This document shows, in pieces, positions 53,513 through 64,000 of a stretch of DNA of 64,000 nucleotides. The stretch is from positions 82,082 through 146,081 of the forward strand of contig JAGNIV010000007.1 in NCBI GenBank assembly GCA_018001015.1. Direction: 5' to 3'. This DNA comes from Phenylobacterium sp. Lineage in GTDB: Bacteria; Pseudomonadota; Alphaproteobacteria; Caulobacterales; Caulobacteraceae. The translations under genes were made by a program, and so were the position numbers. Every line of letters starts with the position of its first letter. Position 1 is the stretch's first letter. The notes beneath the pieces are model-generated. The model was not told the DNA's origin. It ran no database searches and saw nothing but the letters and a program-made list of their open reading frames with translations.

Positions 53513-54112
53513 ATGCCGGCACGCCTAAGAGTTTATCACGCGCTGCTCGCCATCGGCGTCGTCGCGGCCTATTTCAGCACCGAGTGGGGCGGGGTTCACG
53601 CCTGGCTCGGTTATGGCGTCGCGGGGGTCATCCTGTTTCGGCTGGTGTTGGCGCTGACCGGCGCCCCGCAACTCGGCCTGATGCGGTTCTATCCCCATTT
53701 CCACGGCCTCAAGCTTGGTAACGCCTTCACCCATCCGGCCATCAGCCGCGTGCTGTTGGTCGGCATCGCCGTCTGCCTGATCGGCGTCACGGCGACCGGG
53801 ATCGCCATGGACAAGGGACGCACGCTCTCGCTGGGCGCGCCGCCCGCCGTATCCGCCGCGTCGCCGGAGATCGGCGCCCGCGCGAGCTCGGAGGGCGAAG
53901 ACGCCGACGAAGGGCGCGGGGATGAAGAGGAAGAAGGTGACGGACAGGAGGGGGAGGAAGGCGGTCCGCTCGGTGAGCTACATGAGCTGTTCGGCAATGG
54001 CCTGATGCTGCTCGTCGCCGTCCATGTCAGCTATCTGTTCCTGTTCAAGCGTCCCCTCGCCCGGTTCATGCTGTTCGCCGCCCCCAAGCGACCGTCGGCG
54101 CAGGACAAGTGA
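53513..54112 (+). CDS. Cytochrome b561 with an acidic loop
   Basis: 199 residues, four membrane helices: R-V-Y-H-A-L-L-A-I-G-V-V near the start, then helices at about 29-48, 77-97 and 155-175. His residues in the first and last helices (H-A-L-L; V-H-V-S-Y-L-F) are likely haem ligands. Between helices 3 and 4 lies a strongly Asp/Glu-rich stretch (about 120-150) not usual for the family. The b561 fold and the rubrerythrin neighbour suggest electron supply to periplasmic redox proteins. Confidence 0.8.
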   Translation: MPARLRVYHALLAIGVVAAYFSTEWGGVHAWLGYGVAGVILFRLVLALTGAPQLGLMRFYPHFHGLKLGNAFTHPAISRVLLVGIAVCLIGVTATGIAMDKGRTLSLGAPPAVSAASPEIGARASSEGEDADEGRGDEEEEGDGQEGEEGGPLGELHELFGNGLMLLVAVHVSYLFLFKRPLARFMLFAAPKRPSAQDK

Positions 54113-54142
54113 ATTCCGAGGATAGGATCTGAAGGCGCCCGT

Positions 54143-54340
54143 TCAGGTGGGCGGGAAGTCGTCGATCACCGCTTCAAGGGGCGGGACGCTCAGCTCGCTC
54201 TCGGGCGGGTCGCCGGCGATTTTCAGGTGGTGGGCGGCGGCTTCGCTGATCAGGCGGCTGCGCTCGTTCAGGTCGACAGCGGCCGCGGCGGCGGTGAGCA
54301 GCCGGTCCATCCCCTGACCGTCGAGTTGCGATATCGGCAT
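54143..54340 (-). CDS. Small hypothetical protein
   Basis: 65 residues, helical, with no membrane segment: M-D-R-L-L-T-A-A-A-A-A-V-D-L-N-E-R-S-R-L-I. Ends with a Pro-rich acidic tail. No family recognised. It is convergent with the cytochrome b561 gene and divergent from the methyltransferase gene. Confidence 0.5.
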   Translation of the reverse strand: MPISQLDGQGMDRLLTAAAAAVDLNERSRLISEAAAHHLKIAGDPPESELSVPPLEAVIDDFPPT

Positions 54341-54473
54341 GCGCGGCCCCTCCCAGGGTCAGGTGGCGAGGTTAGGCCAGAACACAAAACGTCGGGTTAA
54401 CCAAGGCGCCGGCGCGGCGTGGTTGCGCCGGGCAGGATTGCCTGACCGGCGAATCGCCAATAGCAGAGCAGGC

Positions 54474-55214
54474 ATGGCGCGCATCGAACTCCCCAGCATC
54501 GGCACCCCCGACACGATCCACGGCGGCCGCTCGGCCCGCGACGGCTATCAGCGGGGCTGGGGGCTGATGCACACCGACCTGGCGGCGAAGGTCGCGGCCG
54601 ATCCCCTCTATCAGGCCGCCGCGGAGGCCAGCGACGGGTGGTCGCTGATGGTGGAGGCCAAGCGGATGAACCTGTTCCTGCTGCTCACCGACTTCTTCGA
54701 GAAGCTCGAGGGCAAGGACGTCATCGAGTTCGGCTCCTACCGGGGCGGCAACGCACTGTTCATGGCCCATGTCCTGAAGGCCGTCGCGCCCAAGGCCCGC
54801 GTCTATGCCTGCGACACCTATGCCGGCATGCCGGTGACCGACGCAGCCCGCGACCTGCACGGGGCGGGCGACTTTTCCGAGGCCTCCTTCGAGGCGCTGT
54901 CGAAGCGGCGCGACAAGCTGAAGCTGAAGAACCTGGTGGTGGTGAAGGGCCTGTTCGAGGACACCTTCCCCGGCATCGCCAGGAAGAAGCCGAGCTTCGG
55001 CCTGGCCCACATCGATTGCGATATCTATTCCGGCGTGAAGTACGCCCAGGAAGCCGTCTGGCCGTTCATGACCAAGGGCGGCTACGTCGTCTATGACGAC
55101 GCCGACGCGCCCTCCTGCATCGGCGCCACCGAGGCGGTGGAGGAACTGGTGATGGCGCGCCGCCTGCACTCCGAGCAGGTCTGGCCCCACTGGGTGTTCC
55201 GCGCGGGGCTTTAG
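54474..55214 (+). CDS. TylF/macrocin O-methyltransferase-like protein
   Basis: 246 residues from ATG 54474. V-I-E-F-G-S-Y-R-G-G-N-A-L (SAM site), Y-A-C-D-T-Y-A-G-M-P, and H-I-D-C-D-I-Y-S-G-V-K, then Y-V-V-Y-D-D-A-D-A-P are the TylF-family motifs (metal-dependent methyltransferase). Members modify sugars of macrolides or surface glycans. Alone here, so a glycan or lipid role is a guess. The upstream frame to 54339 is unlike the family. Confidence 0.82.
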   Translation: MARIELPSIGTPDTIHGGRSARDGYQRGWGLMHTDLAAKVAADPLYQAAAEASDGWSLMVEAKRMNLFLLLTDFFEKLEGKDVIEFGSYRGGNALFMAHVLKAVAPKARVYACDTYAGMPVTDAARDLHGAGDFSEASFEALSKRRDKLKLKNLVVVKGLFEDTFPGIARKKPSFGLAHIDCDIYSGVKYAQEAVWPFMTKGGYVVYDDADAPSCIGATEAVEELVMARRLHSEQVWPHWVFRAGL

Positions 55215-55339
55215 GACTCCACCTAACCCTGGCGCGTCTCGATCACGATGCGTTTGGACGGAATGGTCTGAGCGTTGAATGGTGATCTGATTTCAAAATC
55301 ATAGAGCCGGTTTCAGGCTTCGAGAGAAGCCATCCGACT

Positions 55340-55528
55340 CTACGAGGCGTCCCGAGGATCGAACCGGGTCATGTCGGTCTGGGAGAGGCTGATGAGCTGA
55401 GGCGTCGGGGGCTCGGTGGTCTCCTCCGGACCCAGCCGCAGGGCCGCGCCGCTGGCGGCGCCCACGCAGGTGGCCGAGGCCAGGGCGGCGAGCCACAGTC
55501 GGGCGCTGAGACGGGTGGAGAGCGGCAT
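55340..55528 (-). CDS. Possible small exported protein
   Basis: 62 residues if started at ATG 55528. Basic N terminus plus a hydrophobic stretch (L-W-L-A-A-L-A-S-A-T-C-V-G-A-A-S-G-A) resembling a signal peptide or anchor, then a short acidic tail. No clear ribosome site. Weak call. Confidence 0.3.
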   Translation of the reverse strand: MPLSTRLSARLWLAALASATCVGAASGAALRLGPEETTEPPTPQLISLSQTDMTRFDPRDAS

Positions 55529-55809
55529 GGGCGGCGGGACCGGTTGGAGGCGTCTTTCAAACCACCGCGCGCGACATCGGTTCCACCCCACGGGCCGACA
55601 CCCCGACAATCGGGCGCCGCGCATCTTCGAGGGCGGGAAAGATTGGCTGGGGAACTAGGACCCTCAGCGAAACCCTAAAAGACCAACAAAAACAATAGAC
55701 AGTTCGCGACTTGAGAAACGTTTTGTAGCAGTCTTTTGTAGCAGTTGGAAGATCGGCTCACCGATGTGGCGCAAGCCCGTTGTCCTCAAGCGCATGTGCC
55801 ACCTACCGC
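55529..55809. other. Gap without a recognised gene
   Basis: 281 bases between the small exported protein and the hypothetical gene ending at 55810. It marks the change to the less GC-rich variable region. A repeat of TTTTGTAGCAG occurs at about 55722-55744, once complete (TTTTGTAGCAGT) and once overlapping. Nothing else is seen. Confidence 0.4.
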
Positions 55810-56364
55810 CTAAACGCTGATCCTCGACTTCGCGGCGAAGTCCTTCCAATACCCCTGCGTGGCATCGGAAAGCGTCTCCAAAAGCGGAAGAGACCAAACC
55901 ACATGGCCCACCAAGCCAGAGGTCTTGGGGCTATCGCTGAATCCCATGTCGGTCAGGAAGGCTTTTAGAAGCGGCTGATCCATCATGCTGTGCTGGGCGG
56001 CATCTGCTTCGATGTAGCGAAACACCGCAGTCGGAAACCAGTGGCTCTCAGACCCGCTAGACAGGGCACGACGCATCGCAGCCATGACGGCATCCGCAGC
56101 CCCTGGACTGAGGCACACCCCAATTCCAGCAGCTTCCCGTGCCAGAATCGCCGCCGCGTACTGGTGGTTCAGTGGCCGTTTCTCATGCTGGTGGGTGAGA
56201 AAAGCCGCGATCCCGTCGGCGTCCATCTTGCACGCATTTGCCATCGTGAGCGTCAACGCTTGGTGCCAGTTGTCGAACGTCGAATTGGCCACGGCGAACA
56301 TGTGCGCGACGAAGGCGTCAGCCGCGTCCTGCGGAGTGACTTTCCGCTTAAGGAAACCAAGCAT
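55810..56364 (-). CDS. Hypothetical protein of the variable region
   Basis: 184 residues, helical, soluble. M-L-G-F-L-K-R-K-V-T-P-Q-D-A-A-D-A-F at the start; H-Q-A-L-T-L-T-M-A-N-A-C-K later; no known motif. Codon use is somewhat less GC-biased than in the core genes, in line with acquisition. It is the last gene of the minus-strand series that starts with the PP2C gene, but spacing shows it is likely separate. Confidence 0.55.
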   Translation of the reverse strand: MLGFLKRKVTPQDAADAFVAHMFAVANSTFDNWHQALTLTMANACKMDADGIAAFLTHQHEKRPLNHQYAAAILAREAAGIGVCLSPGAADAVMAAMRRALSSGSESHWFPTAVFRYIEADAAQHSMMDQPLLKAFLTDMGFSDSPKTSGLVGHVVWSLPLLETLSDATQGYWKDFAAKSRISV

Positions 56365-56478
56365 CGAATGCTTCCCCCACCGCTTTTTGACAGCCTATCA
56401 TAGCCTGTCACCCCGGCAGTACGGGGCCGTAGCCGTTCGCACTGTCCGCGTTCCCAGCCGTCTGTCGGTGTCCAATCA

Positions 56479-56535
56479 TCACCGCAGCCCCTCCACACGC
56501 TCCCAGTACCTAGCCAGGGCCGGAGCATCGGCGTG
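56479..56535 (-). pseudogene. Remnant of a repeated small ORF (copy 1)
   Basis: Minus-strand frame H-A-D-A-P-A-L-A-R-Y-W-E-R-V-E-G-L-R then TGA, matching the tail A-D-A-x-A-L-x-G-Y-R-E-H-L-E-G-L of the small ORFs at 60187 and 62764. The upstream part of those ORFs is absent here. Nucleotide likeness (GGAGCATCGGCG; CCGCAGCCCCTC) shows common descent. Confidence 0.55.
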
Positions 56536-56573
56536 ACCGGTGCTCAGCACGACTAACTTATCGGACCGAGGAG

Positions 56574-56843
56574 CTAGTCGTTCCGATACCAAATTTTCGG
56601 TGGACATTGGAGTTGATCAAGAGGGACCCCTCGTCTCTTCACATGCCAATATTCAGAACGACCGGGTCGGGAATGTCGATAATCTGAGCCCTTATTAGCC
56701 CATGGGTGCGGGTCTAGAATGTATCGCCCGTCAACTATTTCGCGGACGTCGGCAAAGCCGTGCGAGCCACGACCAGTCCAGAAATATACAAGATCACCGG
56801 GTTCAGGTCGGTACGGCGGGAGGTTGGCCAGATAGTCGTGCAA
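56574..56843 (-). CDS. Small hypothetical protein downstream of the MBL gene
   Basis: 89 residues rich in aromatic residues and Arg: Y-L-A-N-L-P-P-Y-R-P-E-P-G-D-L-V-Y-F-W-T-G-R-G-S-H-G-F. The pattern P-G-D-L-V-Y-F near the start resembles the opening of small SH3-like or NlpC-like folds, but the similarity is weak. It is 48 bases after the MBL gene on the same strand and might belong to that operon. Confidence 0.5.
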   Translation of the reverse strand: MHDYLANLPPYRPEPGDLVYFWTGRGSHGFADVREIVDGRYILDPHPWANKGSDYRHSRPGRSEYWHVKRRGVPLDQLQCPPKIWYRND

Positions 56844-56891
56844 GGTCGAGCCCCTGAAGTCGTGCGTGATCCATCGAAAGCAGGCGGTCTC

Positions 56892-58136
56892 CTATAGGAG
56901 TAGGGGCTCACCATCGGCGAGGCGGCGGATCGGCGGAAACCCATCTGTCTCGCTGTCCCACGCCACCCCATGAATTGGCACGAGCCACGTGGGGTCCATG
57001 CTCTTGGCGAAGGCTCGGAGATTGGTCGGAGAGGCGTGGCCGCTGGTGTGGATATGCGCCGCGCGGGCGCCCCCACGCTCAAACCATTCCTGCAACCGGG
57101 CGCCATCATCATTCTTGAGGTAGCCGCGCCACATCGACCAACTCCAAGCGTCGTCAGCGTTCGGCGCCACACCAGCCGGTTCATAGTCCCTAACTAGCGA
57201 CGGACGAACCATGATCACCCACTTCTCTGGCGTGGCCGCGAGCTTCTTCGCCGACATGCCATGGGGGACCATTCGCTTTACGAAAGCTTCGTCACCCTTG
57301 CGGCGATACATCCGAGCGAACGCACCGGTGACCACGATCTTCATCGCGGGCCAGTCTGGCTGCGGTAGCTTCCCAAACGCAGCGAGGGCTTCGAGAACTT
57401 CGGCTGTGTAGAGATCAACAACGAGCGTCCGGCCAGTCTTCAAGCAGGCCCGATAGAGGGTGACTGTTCGGTCGATGTTCTGGGCTGACCACGCCACAAA
57501 CACCCGCCCCTTCGTCTCTCGGAAGAGAGCCTCGAAATCCCCTTCGAGATCGCTTTCGCTCATGCTGGGCTTGTCGCTACCGAGATTTGTCCCTTCCATA
57601 AGCAGGACATCGATCGCAGGCGGCGGGTTAGCCATCATGCGCTCAACAAGCTTGGACTTCCGACCATGGGTTCGGAAATCACCGGAATAGAGGATGCGTT
57701 TCCCACCGATCCCAATCAGCAGCATGTGCGCGTCGAACGCTGAGTGATCCGTCAGATAGGGAGTCACTGTGAACGGTCCGACCTGGGACGGTTGACCGCT
57801 GATCCACGGCCTGAAGTCCCGTTCGATGGGTTTCCCGAAGATGCCCGAGGTCAGGCGGATGAGCTTGGTGGTGGCCTCGCCACAGTAGACTGGCCAATCG
57901 GCGGGGGTCTCTTCCAGCAGGCCATAATGGTCTTGGTGCGGGTGGGAGATCAGCACGCCGTCGAGGGGAGCCGTAAGGTCCAAGGTCCTGGGCAAAAGCC
58001 CGGTCGCCCCGTTCGGAGCGTCCAGCGGCCTGCCAACGTCGAGGATGACGCGGGCGCCGTTATCGACGGCAACCTCAATGCAGTTGCCGCCGATCTGATC
58101 GGTGGACCGGTGAACGGTTAGTTTGACGCCAGTCAA
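56892..58136 (-). CDS. MBL-fold hydrolase, beta-CASP/RNase J-like
   Basis: 414 residues. Metal motif H65-x-H67-x-D69-H70 (S-H-P-H-Q-D-H-Y-G), a later Y-S-G-D-F-R and H-T-S-G-H-A-S...P-I-H-G at the C terminus, in the order seen in RNase J and other beta-CASP nucleases. These cut RNA or DNA; the substrate here is unknown. Start is TTG at 58136, overlapping the stop of the upstream gene (TTGA), so they are translated together. Third gene of the PP2C operon. Confidence 0.75.
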   Translation of the reverse strand: MTGVKLTVHRSTDQIGGNCIEVAVDNGARVILDVGRPLDAPNGATGLLPRTLDLTAPLDGVLISHPHQDHYGLLEETPADWPVYCGEATTKLIRLTSGIFGKPIERDFRPWISGQPSQVGPFTVTPYLTDHSAFDAHMLLIGIGGKRILYSGDFRTHGRKSKLVERMMANPPPAIDVLLMEGTNLGSDKPSMSESDLEGDFEALFRETKGRVFVAWSAQNIDRTVTLYRACLKTGRTLVVDLYTAEVLEALAAFGKLPQPDWPAMKIVVTGAFARMYRRKGDEAFVKRMVPHGMSAKKLAATPEKWVIMVRPSLVRDYEPAGVAPNADDAWSWSMWRGYLKNDDGARLQEWFERGGARAAHIHTSGHASPTNLRAFAKSMDPTWLVPIHGVAWDSETDGFPPIRRLADGEPLLL

Positions 58137-59104
58137 GCTCGGGCGCCCCCTGGAGCTTCCGGGGGGTCTAGTCGGTATGCATCGGTCTTAATGGCAAGGA
58201 TTGGCACAGACAGTCTCGCCAGCTTTGCTTGGTGATCCTTCCAACCGGGCGAGGCCAGTTGCTCCTCGGTGCCGAAAATGACGAGGCGGGGCGTGGTGTC
58301 GAGGTCCAGCTTTCTTGGGATTTTGGCGGCCTTCCGCACCAGTGGATCAAGGGCGAGTGGCTTTCCGCCGACGCCCGCCCATTCCGCGAAATCGCCCAGC
58401 AACGAGCAGGTTTGAGCGTATGCCTCTATGACAGCCTGCCGATGAATTTCGTCGGCGAGATAGTTCCTATAGGCCGCGACCTGCGTCATCACCTCCGGGT
58501 CTTTGGACCCGCTGGCCCGTAGGCGCGCGTCCGTGATGCGTTTCGCTTCCCAAAACACAATGCGCGCGCCACTGGCGACCGGCTCAAGTGCGATAAGGTC
58601 CATACGCAGGGCCGTCGTCTGCTCGCCGTGGGCGGGCAAGCCCATCTCCAAGTCGATGACCCCGCCGCTGTCCGCGACAACCCGCTCGACCTCAGCCTTC
58701 TCAGGGGTCTCCCAGCGCGCCGCGCGCGCCATCCACTCCCAAAGGGTTGAGGCTCCCGCATATCGGACGGTCTGGCCAGACTTCGCGTGGGCGACCTCGC
58801 CGTCGATCAAGCGCGCGTAGGCTTGTTCGGTCGATTTCTCGAAGGCGTATTTGACGTGCACGTCAACGTAGGGACGGCTTTGTCCATTGAAGCCGACGCG
58901 GGCGACCGACTGACCTCGTAGGTAGAAGTTCAGGTAGTTGTCACGCACAGCGAGGCGTAGCGGTCGCTCAACCTTACCCGTTCCGCTTGGCCCCCACAGC
59001 GCAAGAAGGTCTTTCCACCAGTTGTCGGTGGGACTTGCCGCCAAGTCCTCAAGACGCCCCTTCGCGTCGGGGGTCAGGCCCCGCTTGAATCCCCTTACCG
59101 CCAT
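58133..59104 (-). CDS. PD-(D/E)XK nuclease-like protein
   Basis: 323 residues from ATG 59104, with GGGAGAG six bases upstream; an earlier ATG at 59158 is less favoured. Residues 150-190 carry E153, D169 (R-M-D-L-I-A-L) and E186-A-K188 (V-F-W-E-A-K-R), the D...E-x-K core of the restriction-endonuclease fold. The N-terminal half (W-G-P-S-G-T-G-K-V...) is unlike known domains. Its partner phosphatase and MBL enzyme suggest defence or DNA-damage processing. The family is not named. Confidence 0.6.
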   Translation of the reverse strand: MAVRGFKRGLTPDAKGRLEDLAASPTDNWWKDLLALWGPSGTGKVERPLRLAVRDNYLNFYLRGQSVARVGFNGQSRPYVDVHVKYAFEKSTEQAYARLIDGEVAHAKSGQTVRYAGASTLWEWMARAARWETPEKAEVERVVADSGGVIDLEMGLPAHGEQTTALRMDLIALEPVASGARIVFWEAKRITDARLRASGSKDPEVMTQVAAYRNYLADEIHRQAVIEAYAQTCSLLGDFAEWAGVGGKPLALDPLVRKAAKIPRKLDLDTTPRLVIFGTEEQLASPGWKDHQAKLARLSVPILAIKTDAYRLDPPEAPGGARA

Positions 59105-59121
59105 GCACGTCTCTCCCGCTT

Positions 59122-59144
59122 CGTTCCCCGTGCTTGGGGGAACG
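59122..59144. promoter_or_regulatory. Inverted repeat before the nuclease-like gene
   Basis: CGTTCCCC and GGGGAACG, an 8-bp perfect inverted repeat with a 7-base spacer, 17 bases upstream of ATG 59104. It lies inside the longer alternative frame. It may be an operator or an RNA hairpin that affects initiation. Confidence 0.4.
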
Positions 59145-59195
59145 GCATTACCTGTCATTCTTGTGGGGGTATTCGTCGCCCCAATGGCGCCGCGT

Positions 59196-60041
59196 TCAAA
59201 GCACGCAGTGCCGTCCTGCCGAGATCACCGTTAACGCCCTACGACGCACCGCAACTTCGGATTCGACGTGCCGCCGATTGACTGTCACCGCAGTTGCGTT
59301 GTCGTCAACGTGCAACCCCAGTGCGCTGCGCCCAAGGACTTCACCAATCCCAAAATCTCCGGCCACTGAGACGATTGAAGTCAGATCGACGTCGGAATGG
59401 AAGCCGTCCGAGGTCAGCAGCAAGGTCTCGCTTGGGTCTGAGGACAGGTCGAACGCCTGATGCATTAGGCCGTCGCCAATACCGACATATTGCATCAGCC
59501 CGCTGTCGAAGGGGCCGAGGTCATCAAGGCCCAAGAGCCCAGCCAGGGTATCGTCCGTGGTGACCTGACATAGGGTCGGGTTGGTGCAGTAGAGTCGGCT
59601 GTCACCCACATGGACGGCCCGACATTCACCACCCTGGGTCATGGCTACCGCCGTCAGCGTGGTTCCCCCACGCCCTTGCATCATCGCCCAGACAGCCTCA
59701 TTGACCTCCAGGATCGCGACCTCAAGGACGCTGGCGAGATCAGGTTCAGGCGCGATAGCGAGTGATTGAATGAACGCGGTGGCCGCAATGCTCGCGGCTT
59801 TTGCGCCATCGTCCATACCACCCATCCCATCGAGAACGGCGGCCACGAAGTAGGCTTGCTTGGCGCCATGCTGAGGGATGAAGGCAACGAACGCGCGGTC
59901 CTGGTTCTCAGCCCGCGCGCCCCTGAATGTGACCAGTGAGGCGCCTCCCTCTACAACATGGCCGCCATCGCTCGGCGGGCATGCAAAGAAGGACGCTAGC
60001 CGATCAGTCGTGGCTTTGGCGTCTCTCGTGTTCGATCCCAT
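59196..60041 (-). CDS. PP2C-family protein phosphatase
   Basis: 281 residues. All PP2C landmarks occur: E45-N-Q-D-R, D71-G-M-G-G, G125-G-T-T, V-G-D-S-R (145-149), S-D-G (211-213), D246-D-N. Metal-binding aspartates are complete, so it should be active on phospho-Ser/Thr. No kinase gene is adjacent. It heads the operon with the nuclease-like and MBL genes (37-91 bases to the next start). PP2C genes beside nucleases occur in bacterial stress and defence islands. Confidence 0.85.
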   Translation of the reverse strand: MGSNTRDAKATTDRLASFFACPPSDGGHVVEGGASLVTFRGARAENQDRAFVAFIPQHGAKQAYFVAAVLDGMGGMDDGAKAASIAATAFIQSLAIAPEPDLASVLEVAILEVNEAVWAMMQGRGGTTLTAVAMTQGGECRAVHVGDSRLYCTNPTLCQVTTDDTLAGLLGLDDLGPFDSGLMQYVGIGDGLMHQAFDLSSDPSETLLLTSDGFHSDVDLTSIVSVAGDFGIGEVLGRSALGLHVDDNATAVTVNRRHVESEVAVRRRALTVISAGRHCVL

Positions 60042-60186
60042 CCCTACTATTCAATCGGCGACCGTTTGAATTGCGGGCTGGGACCACATTTCCTCGTTTT
60101 GCCACGACTCTCCTGTGGATAACTCGGCAGACGGGCGACGCAGATCGCTCAGATCACAGGACAGCGGCGCCGCTTAGACGCCCTGA

Positions 60187-60444
60187 TCAGCGCGCTTCAG
60201 AGGACCGCAGCCCCTCTAGATGTTCCCGGTATCCAGCCAACGCTAGAGCATCGGCGCCGACCTTGGCCACGGCCTCATCCACTTCAGCCAGGGCCTTCTG
60301 GACCGTCAAGCGCGGACAATCGACTTGCAGCAACGCGACCTGCCCCGGTAGCACTGTCGCGGCGACAGTCGCTTCGTGCGACCGATTGCTTCTGGGGGTA
60401 GCGGACAAGCAATGTATCACACGCTCGAAGATCGGCGCGTTCAC
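60187..60444 (-). CDS. Small repeated ORF (copy 2)
   Basis: 85 residues from a GTG start. The C-terminal half L-T-V-Q-K-A-L-A-E-V-D-E-A-V-A-K-V-G-A-D-A-L-A-L-A-G-Y closely matches copy 3 at 62764; the N-terminal half does not and may be out of register. It lies divergent to the DGQHR-like gene with a 12-base gap. A real product is uncertain. Confidence 0.4.
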   Translation of the reverse strand: MNAPIFERVIHCLSATPRSNRSHEATVAATVLPGQVALLQVDCPRLTVQKALAEVDEAVAKVGADALALAGYREHLEGLRSSEAR

Positions 60445-60456
60445 TGCACCTCGGTG

Positions 60457-61590
60457 ATGACCGCCCTTACGGTTGGTCGCTACCTAGAACTCGTCGAAGG
60501 CGTCTACGCAAAGCGCGGCGGCTTGGACGGTCAGAGGGCACCGCTCAAGACCAAGACCGGCATCACGATCCGATCGCGGATGGTTAGTGATTTGCAGCAG
60601 GGTGCCGTCATTCCGCCCGTGGTGTTGGGTGTGCTCGCCGATGATCCACAGATCGCTGAGTTAGCGACCGTTGGAGACTCCGAGGCTTTTTCCACTTGGT
60701 TCTCGGCTCTTGACCCAGAGGCCATCTCGATCATCGACGGGATGCAGCGAACGACGGCTCTGAAGGAGGCGGTCGTCGTTCACGGTGCAATCGCTAACAC
60801 GTCCATTCGGGTCGAGTTCTGGATTTCAAAATACCTCAACAGCCTGATCTACCGGATGCTCGTGCTAAATACGGGTCAGGTGCCGTGGGAGTTGGGTCGT
60901 CAACTAGAAACGGTATACAGCCAATTCTTAAAGCGCATTTCCGATGAAGTCGGTGGCGAAGCCGAAATATTCGAGCGCGATGAGAAGCGACGCCGCGCGT
61001 CTGCCGGGCAATATCAAAGCAGCAACATCATTGAATTGCTTTTGATATTCTCTTCTCGTAAATCCGAAATCGACATCAAAGATCGTGTTGCTGAAGATTT
61101 TGCTCGTCTCGATGCTATTGAAACGACGGCACACGCGGAATTTCTGGAATATTTCATTCAGATGCTCCGGCTGATGGTTGCGCTGGACAAGGCATTTTCA
61201 AAACTGCCGAGACAGAATGGCGAAGAACCCGTGGGCCGCCTTCAGTCTGGCAAAGACATCTTCGCTAGCTTCCCCGCGATGGCCGGGTTCGCGGCGGCTG
61301 TCTCGGTGTTTTTGTTCGACGAGCCCGGCTTCAAGATCGAATGGGCGGATGCAGGCGCCAAGATGGATCAGGTGCAGCAGGCCATCGAGACGTTGACGGC
61401 GCGCATTGACGGTTTCGACCCAGATGGTCTCAGGCAATTCATGCAGATGGAGACTCTCGCAGAACGCCTTAGTGGGCGGCGCGGAGGTGTTGGACGGTTC
61501 GAGCGGGAGATGTTCCGCCGCGCGTTCACAACCATGATCAAGAATGCCGAGCGGCTTGAAAGCATGGAACCTTGCTGGCTCGCGTCGTAA
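60457..61590 (+). CDS. DGQHR/DUF262-like protein
   Basis: 377 residues from ATG 60457; ATG 60412 is possible. The ParB-like motif I-I-D-G-M-Q-R-T-T-A-L at about 92-102 resembles D-G-Q-x-R of DndB/DGQHR and DUF262 proteins, and V-L-N-T-G-Q-V-P-W follows. Such domains act in DNA-modification-dependent defence. The later sequence is helical with no known motif. It overlaps nothing and precedes the HEPN-like gene by one base, so the two form an operon. AT-richer codon use than the core genome. Confidence 0.6.
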   Translation: MTALTVGRYLELVEGVYAKRGGLDGQRAPLKTKTGITIRSRMVSDLQQGAVIPPVVLGVLADDPQIAELATVGDSEAFSTWFSALDPEAISIIDGMQRTTALKEAVVVHGAIANTSIRVEFWISKYLNSLIYRMLVLNTGQVPWELGRQLETVYSQFLKRISDEVGGEAEIFERDEKRRRASAGQYQSSNIIELLLIFSSRKSEIDIKDRVAEDFARLDAIETTAHAEFLEYFIQMLRLMVALDKAFSKLPRQNGEEPVGRLQSGKDIFASFPAMAGFAAAVSVFLFDEPGFKIEWADAGAKMDQVQQAIETLTARIDGFDPDGLRQFMQMETLAERLSGRRGGVGRFEREMFRRAFTTMIKNAERLESMEPCWLAS

Positions 61591-61591
61591 A

Positions 61592-62752
61592 ATGGCCCGC
61601 TACCTCAAACACTGCGTTGAGAGCGCGTTCGCGCCGTTTGTAGCGGCTGCTGGAGGTCCCAATTACGCGGCCCAGCTTACAACGGCAGACCTGCCGGAGG
61701 AGCGGAAGGCCGCTCAGTTCTCCAAATTTAGGTCGCTAAAACCGTTCGGCGGCGACCCGCTTTACCTTCCCGGCAACGGATTCATCGCTCGCTTCGCACA
61801 TTCGGCGGGGGCGTTTCTATGCGTGTCAGACCATCACCTCGATGACGAGGGAAAAGAAGAACTCAATGAGTGGGCCGCTGGCGAAGGCTTGTTGGAAGGG
61901 GCTCTAGATGAAGCGTCATTTCTCGTTCTTTGCGATGAACTAGGTGGCTTCTATAAGCCGCTAGGCTTGAACATGAAGAAAGAACGCGCAGAGAACCTTC
62001 TCGGGGTGGTCAATGATGCCTATGAGGGCCACGACATCAACGACATAATTGAGTGGTATCAGTCTGTTTCAATCTTTGACATTCCTGAAGACCACTACGC
62101 GCTGACAGCAAACGCCTACCGTATCGCCGCCGGACTTGTGAGCAGCAATCGCGCCTACCGTCCCGAAATCATCGGCGATGAAATGGCCACCGCGATCCAC
62201 GCCTTGAATCTTCTTCCAAACATCAATCCTGAAAACTTATATTTCGCGCTCACCTCGACCCACTGGAAGCACACTTTCCTCGATCTATACAAATGTTTGG
62301 AGGCGATATTTTACTTGCCGTGGACATCTGTTCTTCGAGATTCTTTGAAATCTGAATTGACCGCCTTGGCGTTAGCCAAGGAGTGCAGACGAAGTCTTAT
62401 TTGGCGCGAAAGAGAAAAAGTGTCGATTGCCCGCCTGTTCGAGACGTTGCCTGATTTGATATGCAAGCCTCCTACACTTGCGGCGATCGCTCCGCTCCAA
62501 GACTTAGTTGGCAATAACGCTAACAAGGACAAATATGGAGAGCGAATTTATAAGATTCGAAACGAACTAGTTCACCAAGAAGACTATGAAGACCCCACAC
62601 CAATCGAAATTCCAAAGAACTTCTGGCTCCCCATTTGTCTCTATTTAAGCGGAATACTGAAGGAACTCTACACCAGCAGGGCTCCCGACATTGACTATGT
62701 GTTCGAGCTTGAGGTTGGCGAACTTCCGACGAAGGCCGTCAAGCCTGCCTGA
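61592..62752 (+). CDS. HEPN-motif protein, candidate ribonuclease effector
   Basis: 386 residues from ATG 61592, two bases after the previous stop. Near the C terminus I-R323-N-E-L-V-H328 is the R-x4-H active site of HEPN ribonucleases, in a helical context (K-I-R-N-E-L-V-H-Q-E) like Apea/MAE_28990-type HEPN domains. The N-terminal 280 residues are not recognised. HEPN proteins often cut RNA when an infection is sensed. Coupled to the DGQHR-like gene. The motif alone is short, so the call is moderate. Confidence 0.6.
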   Translation: MARYLKHCVESAFAPFVAAAGGPNYAAQLTTADLPEERKAAQFSKFRSLKPFGGDPLYLPGNGFIARFAHSAGAFLCVSDHHLDDEGKEELNEWAAGEGLLEGALDEASFLVLCDELGGFYKPLGLNMKKERAENLLGVVNDAYEGHDINDIIEWYQSVSIFDIPEDHYALTANAYRIAAGLVSSNRAYRPEIIGDEMATAIHALNLLPNINPENLYFALTSTHWKHTFLDLYKCLEAIFYLPWTSVLRDSLKSELTALALAKECRRSLIWREREKVSIARLFETLPDLICKPPTLAAIAPLQDLVGNNANKDKYGERIYKIRNELVHQEDYEDPTPIEIPKNFWLPICLYLSGILKELYTSRAPDIDYVFELEVGELPTKAVKPA

Positions 62753-62763
62753 CCGCTTCGGCA

Positions 62764-63057
62764 TTATTCCCCGTCCCCAGCGACCTCCACAGATGCGTTC
62801 GCCCGATCGTCTTCTCCAACGATCTCGAAACCCTCATCCGAAGATAGCCCCTCTAGATGCTCCCGGTATCCGACCAACGCCGGGGCGTCGACGCCGACCT
62901 TGGCCAAAGCCTCATCCAATTCAGCCAAAGCCTTCTCGACCGTCAGCCATGGCGGTGCGTCGTGACCCTCCCCAACCAGACGGCGCCGCAACTCGGCGGC
63001 CATCATATCGCGATCGGCGTCGGCCAGCAGATCGGGCCGTTCGAAGTAAATCAGCAT
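62764..63057 (-). CDS. Small repeated ORF (copy 3)
   Basis: 97 residues, helical: Y-F-E-R-P-D-L-L-A-D-A-D-R-D-M-M-A-A-E-L-R-R-R-L, then L-T-V-E-K-A-L-A-E-L-D-E-A-L-A-K-V. The tail V-D-A-P-A-L-V-G-Y-R-E-H-L-E-G-L is shared with copies 1 and 2. This is the most complete copy. It is convergent with the HEPN gene. It may be a small antitoxin or a conserved element of the region. Confidence 0.5.
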   Translation of the reverse strand: MLIYFERPDLLADADRDMMAAELRRRLVGEGHDAPPWLTVEKALAELDEALAKVGVDAPALVGYREHLEGLSSDEGFEIVGEDDRANASVEVAGDGE

Positions 63058-63304
63058 CAGGCATTTTTTGGAGTCCGATCAGAAGTAACTGCGCATATTT
63101 ATGAGCTATCCACTCCCGCAACTATCGCTGGAATCCACACAACCTAAGATACCTCACCATCAAAATACTTGGTGAAGTTTGCGAAGCACGGCAATCCATA
63201 GATTGAAGGTGCGGTCCGAGGTAGCGGTACTTGGCCTAATTTCAGTCAGACCCCAGTTGCCCTAAGGTCGCAAAACTGGGCTCTTGCGGAGCGGTGGATT
63301 GACC

Positions 63305-64000
63305 ATGGTCAGCAGCACTGGGCGAAAAGCCCCAAACGCCGAACTGCGGCGGCAAGCCTTCATGCTTGGCGCGACATACCTCCTTCAGGCGGCACGGCTG
63401 GCGGGGGCGGCGATTGACCGTGAATTGATCCAGACCCTCCTATTTCTTGCAATTTCGCGCGCAAATGTGGCCGGGATCACTGAGGCCCCAGAAGCGGGTA
63501 CGCGGTTTGCGGGCCTCACCTCGATACCCCCAGACACAATGCGTCTGCCCATCAGCGTCTACGCGCTCTCAAGGGACCTCCGGCTTCCACAAGAGACCGT
63601 CCGGCGACATGTCGGGAAGCTAAAGGCGGATGGGCTGTGCATCGAGGCCGCCGGTGGGTTAATTATACCCCGCTCGGTCCTTGTGGGACCAAATTACCTG
63701 ATGGCTATAGATCAGAATTGGTCCCTTACCAGAGACTTTGTGGATGAATTGGCGCGTCTTGGACTTTTCGTCCCCTCACAGTCGGATGCGCAACACAGCG
63801 ATGTTCGACGCCAGACGGTCCGCATCTCCGTTGATTACTTCGTTGACGGACTTAATCTTCTTGCCCGCCTAGGAGGAGGCAATCTTCGAGCCGCCCTCGT
63901 ACTGTGCGCGGTGTCAGCCTACGAGCTTGAACGCCACTCCCCTGACGAGACACTCGGTCAGACTATGACGAGGGTGGGCGACATAGCCTTGGATTACTTC
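63305..64000 (+). CDS. Winged-helix-like protein, 3' end outside window
   Basis: Reads open from ATG 63305 to the end of the window (232 codons, no stop). Helical start (R-R-Q-A-F-M-L-G-A-T-Y-L-L-Q). Around residues 80-115, I-S-V-Y-A-L-S-R-D-L-R-L-P-Q-E-T-V-R-R-H-V-G-K-L looks like a helix-turn-helix of a winged-helix regulator (S-R-x-L-x-x-P-x-E-T-V-R-R-H). The remaining part continues helical. A transcription factor or HTH adaptor is likely. The gap 63058-63304 before it holds nothing recognised. Confidence 0.6.
   Translation, partial: MVSSTGRKAPNAELRRQAFMLGATYLLQAARLAGAAIDRELIQTLLFLAISRANVAGITEAPEAGTRFAGLTSIPPDTMRLPISVYALSRDLRLPQETVRRHVGKLKADGLCIEAAGGLIIPRSVLVGPNYLMAIDQNWSLTRDFVDELARLGLFVPSQSDAQHSDVRRQTVRISVDYFVDGLNLLARLGGGNLRAALVLCAVSAYELERHSPDETLGQTMTRVGDIALDYF

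Follow-up and report, generated by a model that had tools for sequence, protein, structure and literature searches.

A predicted PD-(D/E)XK nuclease paired with a beta-CASP metallo-beta-lactamase in Phenylobacterium: a candidate mobile immune module with an exchangeable phosphatase

The window analyzed here, a stretch of 64,000 nucleotides (nt) of a Phenylobacterium sp. contig (JAGNIV010000007.1), contains three adjoining minus-strand open reading frames (ORFs) that encode a PP2C phosphatase, a middle protein predicted to be a nuclease, and a beta-CASP metallo-beta-lactamase (MBL). A preliminary description made from the DNA letters had reported three such genes, the last two coupled through a TTGA overlap, and each was found where it had been placed. 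Lengths are in amino acids (aa).

59196..60041, minus strand: PP2C-type (PPM) phosphatase, 281 aa, ATG start, intact; assigned by Pfam and NCBIfam matches and by motifs
58133..59104, minus strand: PD-(D/E)XK-type predicted nuclease, 323 aa, family unnamed, ATG start at 59104
58133..58136, minus strand: TTGA stop/start overlap of the nuclease and MBL genes, the MBL TTG overlapping the preceding TGA
56892..58136, minus strand: beta-CASP MBL, RNase J-like in fold; 414 aa, starting from the TTG at 58136

A Shine-Dalgarno-like GGGAG (59117-59113) lies 8 nt upstream of the nuclease ATG at 59104; a start at the ATG at 59158 is possible and would give a 341-aa form. The PP2C gene is separated from the nuclease-MBL pair by 37-91 bp.

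The phosphatase, described earlier as complete, is indeed intact. It scored narrowly above the Pfam cut-off for PF13672 (24.1 bits against 24) and reached 78 bits with the Stp1-type model NF033484, below the cut-off of 230. Its sequence contains RxxNQD, DGMGG, GGTT, GDSR, TSDG and DDN, which we take to be the PP2C motifs, and it is the only PF13672 match of its genome. The lack of a visible kinase, remarked upon in the preliminary description, extends to the whole of the window contig (C26), the two PF00069 matches of the genome being on other contigs (C64 and C76).

The middle protein had been credited with an E...D...ExK core, and no substitution in this core was found among 36 homologues. 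E135 and E153 were kept in all 36, and D169, E186, K188, Q208 and Y212 in 35, the remaining row (L050) being gapped from D169 on; in L045 and L048 the nuclease frame is split, and these two nucleases were excluded from the residue counts and the trees. The motifs are spaced as E186xK188 and Q208xxxY212 and include the D...(D/E)xK arrangement required of the class. An AlphaFold model built from 21 sequences (pLDDT 92) had the DSSP order H134-145, E149-155, E167-176, E179-189, H205-216 ... E273-277, which contains an alpha-beta-beta-beta-alpha-beta core as judged by secondary-structure order and not by superposition. Assignment of the protein to the PD-(D/E)XK nucleases is the likeliest. No convincing family match was obtained for it in Pfam, NCBIfam or PADLOC. 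The Pfam scan of its homologues gave isolated single-member matches (best 0.0031) and no consistent family, the PADLOC scan of 33 members gave two single-member matches (PbeA at 0.025 and an unnamed effector at 0.03), and a PDB sequence search with the profile of the protein returned nothing below E 0.2.

The third protein, read beforehand as an RNase J-like MBL, matched Lactamase_B_2 (48.9 bits) and reached 69 bits with the RNase J family model TIGR00649, below the curated cut-off of 400. In an alignment of 36 homologues (34 of the 38 nuclease loci described below, L051 and L063), D33, HxHxDH 65-70, H131, D153 and E181 were present in every row, and H367 and H389 in 35, the row of L018 being truncated and gapped there; we take these residues to be MBL motifs I-IV and beta-CASP motifs A-C. 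In a model of a nuclease-MBL fusion from Shewanella (L012), the MBL part matched RNase J and PDB 2az4 (TM 0.75, normalized by target length), which gives the MBL a predicted beta-CASP fold. A His at beta-CASP motif C goes with a preference for RNA, and its presence here would favor RNA over DNA as the substrate. A role as the housekeeping RNase J was considered and dropped. Two more distant, weaker MBL matches in the genome (frames of 562 and 610 aa on contigs C5 and C29) are likelier candidates, and because of these two proteins the window MBL is probably not the housekeeping enzyme. The Cas14 (Type VII CRISPR) model scored 14.9 bits against a cut-off of 800, and no CRISPR array was found among repeats of at least 20 bases at 54000-64000.

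The nuclease and the MBL form the conserved unit of the module. Nuclease homologues were collected from 38 loci (six on plasmids, 21 on GTDB contigs, ten found by searching genomes, and the window). The nuclease is present in seven plasmid records, one of which shares coordinates and size with another and was not counted. An MBL of the same family adjoins the nuclease in 36 of the 38, distributed over alpha-, beta- and gammaproteobacteria and Acidobacteriota and including two loci with an incomplete MBL (L022, and L042, where it is a fragment). All 33 loci in which both genes are near full length are co-directional, with the nuclease first in 20, the MBL first in 11 and both in a single frame in two: the clean Shewanella fusion and L050, in which the nuclease half matches the N-terminal part only. 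The two genes overlap by four bases in 11 of these 33 loci; in the closely related L005, L024 and L026 they are about 630 bases apart. Among 397 genomes of the phylum, query included, the nuclease was found in eight, the MBL in seven and both in six (Fisher p 3.7e-11, or 1.6e-9 with the query genome left out; at most four to five candidates were scored per genome). A Mantel test also showed the distances between nucleases and those between MBLs to be correlated (r 0.69, n=33, p 0.0001).

A phosphatase recurs beside this pair as an exchangeable partner, since PP2Cs of two subfamilies adjoin it in four of the 38 loci and a calcineurin-like phosphoesterase does so in six others. The PP2C loci are the window, L044, L004 and L025; the search profile was built from three of these four, and remote PP2Cs may have escaped it. 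The window and L044 proteins (43% identity) form one subfamily and those of L004 and L025 (55%), both divergently transcribed, the other. The calcineurin-like genes lie in L003, L009, L010, L015, L017 and L019 (two in L019), the widest gap being 353 bases (L015); the gene of L010 and one of those of L019 were called by cluster and motif and the remainder by Pfam. Thus ten loci carry 11 adjacent phosphatase genes, and the other 28, some on contigs that end early, have none that was recognized. The 11 genes compare with 0.11 expected in 72 flanking slots, a baseline taken from the query genome alone (five metallophosphoesterase matches and one PP2C match, about 3,900 genes assumed), and phosphatases may in any case be more frequent in defence islands. 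We judge that the 11 genes go back to about five or six separate acquisitions (P 1.3e-7 or 2.3e-9). The preliminary description had looked to recurrence of the trio across genomes; the nuclease-MBL pair recurs, and the PP2C, recognized in only four loci, was dropped from the minimal module on that account.

A locus from the same genus (L044) illustrates how the components may vary. It has PP2C, nuclease and MBL in the order of the window, with a TGATG overlap joining the PP2C and nuclease genes. Its MBL is 71% identical to that of the window, its PP2C 43% and its nuclease 24%, and the nuclease sits in a different branch of the tree. By these identities, parts of the module have apparently been swapped.

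In the window the trio lies, with a pair of genes resembling the Dazbog defence system, in an island of low guanine-cytosine content (54-62%, against 68%), the drop being from 68% to 61% and 54%. The neighboring features are as follows.

60376..61590, plus strand: DzbA-like gene (Dazbog), divergent neighbor outside the core (PADLOC 8.5e-52)
61544..62752, plus strand: DzbB-like gene (Dazbog), neighbor (PADLOC 1.1e-5)
56481..56533, minus strand: degenerate repeat copy 1, downstream of the trio, 79% identical to copy 2 over 53 nt
60204..60308, minus strand: repeat copy 2, between the trio and Dazbog, 86% identical to copy 3 over 100 nt
62841..62945, minus strand: repeat copy 3, past the Dazbog pair, within a 97-aa ORF (62764-63057)

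The three short-repeat copies bound the trio and the Dazbog pair in a manner resembling cassette borders, and a protein search of the genome with the repeat ORF (E 0.01) gave matches confined to the window island. Dazbog directly adjoins the trio in the same island but forms an operon apart from it, divergently oriented and flanked by two repeat copies of its own.

Elsewhere the pair also recurs beside known defence genes, so its homologues are not confined to unrelated single-gene contexts. From all loci except the window and L026, up to two genes of at least 200 aa per side were taken, and 115 of the 120 selected were scanned; the five dropped were two near-duplicates and three members of a Tn3-type transposase cluster. 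At E 1e-10 these 115 neighbors matched 50 and 37 PADLOC families in two batches, compared with 10 for a control set of 98 proteins taken from 20 arbitrarily chosen stretches in five genomes; the figures are families and not proteins, several families can fall on one protein, and some models are generic. The families listed included type IIG restriction enzymes, GajB-model helicases, a CBASS cyclase, IetA, ShosA, SoFic, PsyrA, MzaA and WYL regulators, the last in four loci. The module is also present on plasmids, and the nuclease is infrequent, occurring in four of 385 genomes of the class, two of 60 of the genus and eight of 397 of the phylum (each including the query), or about 1-2%. This genomic context suggests a role in defence.

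Other genes were seen near the pair. A protein of about 130 aa with the pattern GIFW...PRGR...HYR occurs in L005, L006, L007, L016, L021-L024, L026, L046 and L051; a profile from six members gave 11 strong and two weak matches in 42 loci, and the two members scanned matched no Pfam family. In L017 (4875-8862), L019 (4822-8821) and L063 (9880-12217), an ADP-ribosylglycohydrolase is fused to an inositol-phosphatase or dual-specificity-phosphatase domain and accompanied by a gene read by eye as Nudix-like; these genes are possibly a second, ADP-ribose-linked module. A further, conserved gene pair, c26/c27, was found in L025 (14062-18722) and L018 (12259-16253), and the larger gene is of AAA type in L018.

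The preliminary description knew of no named system with this gene set, and none was matched in the sources searched. No PADLOC model clearly matched either core protein. A description of the pair was not found in the literature searched, including the accessible parts of PMC12799240, PMC11341870, PMC11090510, PMC10952713 and PMC12839542; subscription papers and most preprints lay outside that scope. The trio is most likely an undescribed defence module; newer defence lists may include it.

Several known systems share elements with it. According to the portion of PMC12799240 available, pairs of an MBL-fold nuclease and a trypsin-like protease (HamM-type) occur in Hachiman, AVAST, Lamassu and DRT systems, and the HamM nuclease is inactive until its partner enzyme activates it. 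As in those pairs, an MBL-fold predicted nuclease is here accompanied by another enzyme in the midst of defence systems; unlike them, with their ComEC-like, protease-activated MBLs, the MBL is of the beta-CASP type and its usual partner of the PD-(D/E)XK type. No trypsin-like protease was found among the ten window proteins scanned with Pfam, the other loci not having been scanned for one. The KKP system, a mobile anti-phage operon, likewise has a PF13672 PP2C, which in the available part of PMC11341870 is both the antitoxin and the sensor of phages, but KKP comprises two kinases and no nuclease whereas the present trio has two predicted nucleases and no kinase.

The MBL shares the fold and motifs of RNase J and EF2904 (PDB 2az4) in its MBL part; it differs in scoring far below the family cut-off and in its length, about 415 aa against about 550 aa for the RNase J chains listed. 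Shedu is described as a single-gene system, and its nuclease SduA has the same order of motifs (E..., D, ExK, Q) as the nuclease described here. Against seven SduA_C sequences from Shedu, hhalign placed these motifs in register (score 24.8, P 0.022, probability 2%), and the controls scored lower (60 column shuffles at most 19.6, the reversed alignment 15.7, the MBL alignment 16.0). No match to SduA_C (PF14082) was found among 21 nuclease members at E<=5, and the nuclease here is paired with an MBL. The likeness to Shedu by alignment is one of resemblance and not of membership.

We consider it rather probable that the trio is a mobile two-nuclease immune module, directed against phages or plasmids, whose phosphatase can be exchanged. 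The two predicted nucleases would work as one unit: the PD-(D/E)XK protein would cut first and leave a 5′-phosphate end, from which the RNase J-like enzyme would degrade inward, 5′ to 3′. The phosphatase, PP2C here and calcineurin-like elsewhere, would set the on/off state of the pair, either by removing phosphate from one of the module's proteins or in response to changes in phosphorylation during infection; such control is plausible. The PP2C of KKP and the HamM-type MBL pairs are precedents for such a module. The gene arrangement, its conservation and its surroundings rest on computation; the nuclease activities, the order in which they act, their substrate, the function in defence and the part played by the phosphatase are inferred. 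A fuller version, which would be a new kind of bacterial immunity, is put forward only tentatively: a phosphatase-gated complex that joins two unrelated nucleases as PD-(D/E)XK cutter and beta-CASP 5′ exonuclease would destroy the nucleic acid of the invader or of the infected cell, with the MBL as a stable hub and the cutter and phosphatase swapped to change target and trigger.

A number of observations weigh against the two-nuclease immune module. The structure prediction proposed beforehand for the 323-residue protein gave a secondary-structure order fitting PD-(D/E)XK, but Foldseek found no PDB match to the model at E<=0.001 (listed root-mean-square deviations mostly 15-22), and the BFVD matches were weak, several of them named PD-(D/E)XK, Cas4 or RecB and none at E<=0.001. 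The resemblance to Shedu is modest, and no homologue turned up in phage records or viral contigs. The fusion model (pTM 0.59) is uninformative on any nuclease-MBL interface. L021 and L045 have the nuclease without the MBL. Conversely, the MBL occurs without this nuclease family in one of seven genomes and in three of the ten plasmid records found at E 1e-20 (the other seven bearing the nuclease), and in L051 (Rhizobium leguminosarum) it adjoins a small gene with no nuclease partner seen. The PP2C adjoins few pairs and most have no recognized phosphatase; the closest relative, L008 (MBL 84%, nuclease 72%), has no PP2C in the 357 upstream bases available. Still, the suggested refutation of the nuclease assignment through its structure did not come about, because both the active-site residues and the topology of the AlphaFold model fit the PD-(D/E)XK type.

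In the MBL-only genome (L063), the frame upstream of the MBL, with a TTGA overlap, carries a different, D...ELK nuclease-like motif. More distant beta-CASP MBLs were seen on a Butyrivibrio plasmid (L052, 4053-7173), with a WYL regulator and a D...ELK protein, and on a Prevotella plasmid (L053, 1-8024), with WYL and DUF262 genes, the MBL overlapping a metallophosphatase and no nuclease being recognized. The D...ELK motifs of L063 and Butyrivibrio are by-eye readings, for which hhalign did not support homology.

Among the alternatives, the one that survives best would have the nuclease pair as a real defence module and the PP2C as an unrelated passenger of the island. The PP2C's presence in four of 38 loci, its divergent orientation in L004 and L025 and the 37-91 bp that set it apart in the window are all in keeping with this; against it, L044 keeps the gene order and a TGATG overlap despite a strongly different nuclease, two distinct PP2C subfamilies were acquired beside the pair, and the window PP2C is the sole PF13672 match in its genome. 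We regard a passenger PP2C as rather doubtful. A toxin-antitoxin or addiction module, in which one or both nucleases would be toxic to the host and restrained by the phosphatase or a small partner, chiefly for plasmid stabilization, is unlikely. The seven plasmid records, the Tn3-type transposase cluster near L002, L003 and L006 (named in L003 only) and the PP2C antitoxin of KKP (PMC11341870, available part) favor such a module; the 28 of 38 loci without a recognized adjacent phosphatase do not, and the WYL regulators and defence-gene neighbors fit defence. Toxin-antitoxin action would also be compatible with abortive-infection defence.

More improbable still is nucleic-acid repair or end-processing, in which the nucleases would trim and the phosphatases clean ends after damage, phage or toxin cuts: by our reading the calcineurin-like enzymes of L009 and L010 resemble general phosphoesterases more than protein phosphatases, and ADP-ribosylglycohydrolase, further phosphatase domains and the by-eye Nudix-like genes lie near L017, L019 and L063, but PP2C enzymes are known as protein phosphatases, neither a ligase nor a helicase was recognized as common to most loci (their neighbors being partly annotated), and the occurrence is patchy, in about 1-2% of genomes.

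If the two-nuclease module with its exchangeable phosphatase is protective, it would add to bacterial immunity a nuclease pair without a clear model in PADLOC-DB 2.0.0, and would link phosphatases of unrelated folds to the control of nucleases. It would also offer a testable case of part-swapping in immunity, since within the same genus similar MBL and PP2C proteins accompany a different nuclease.

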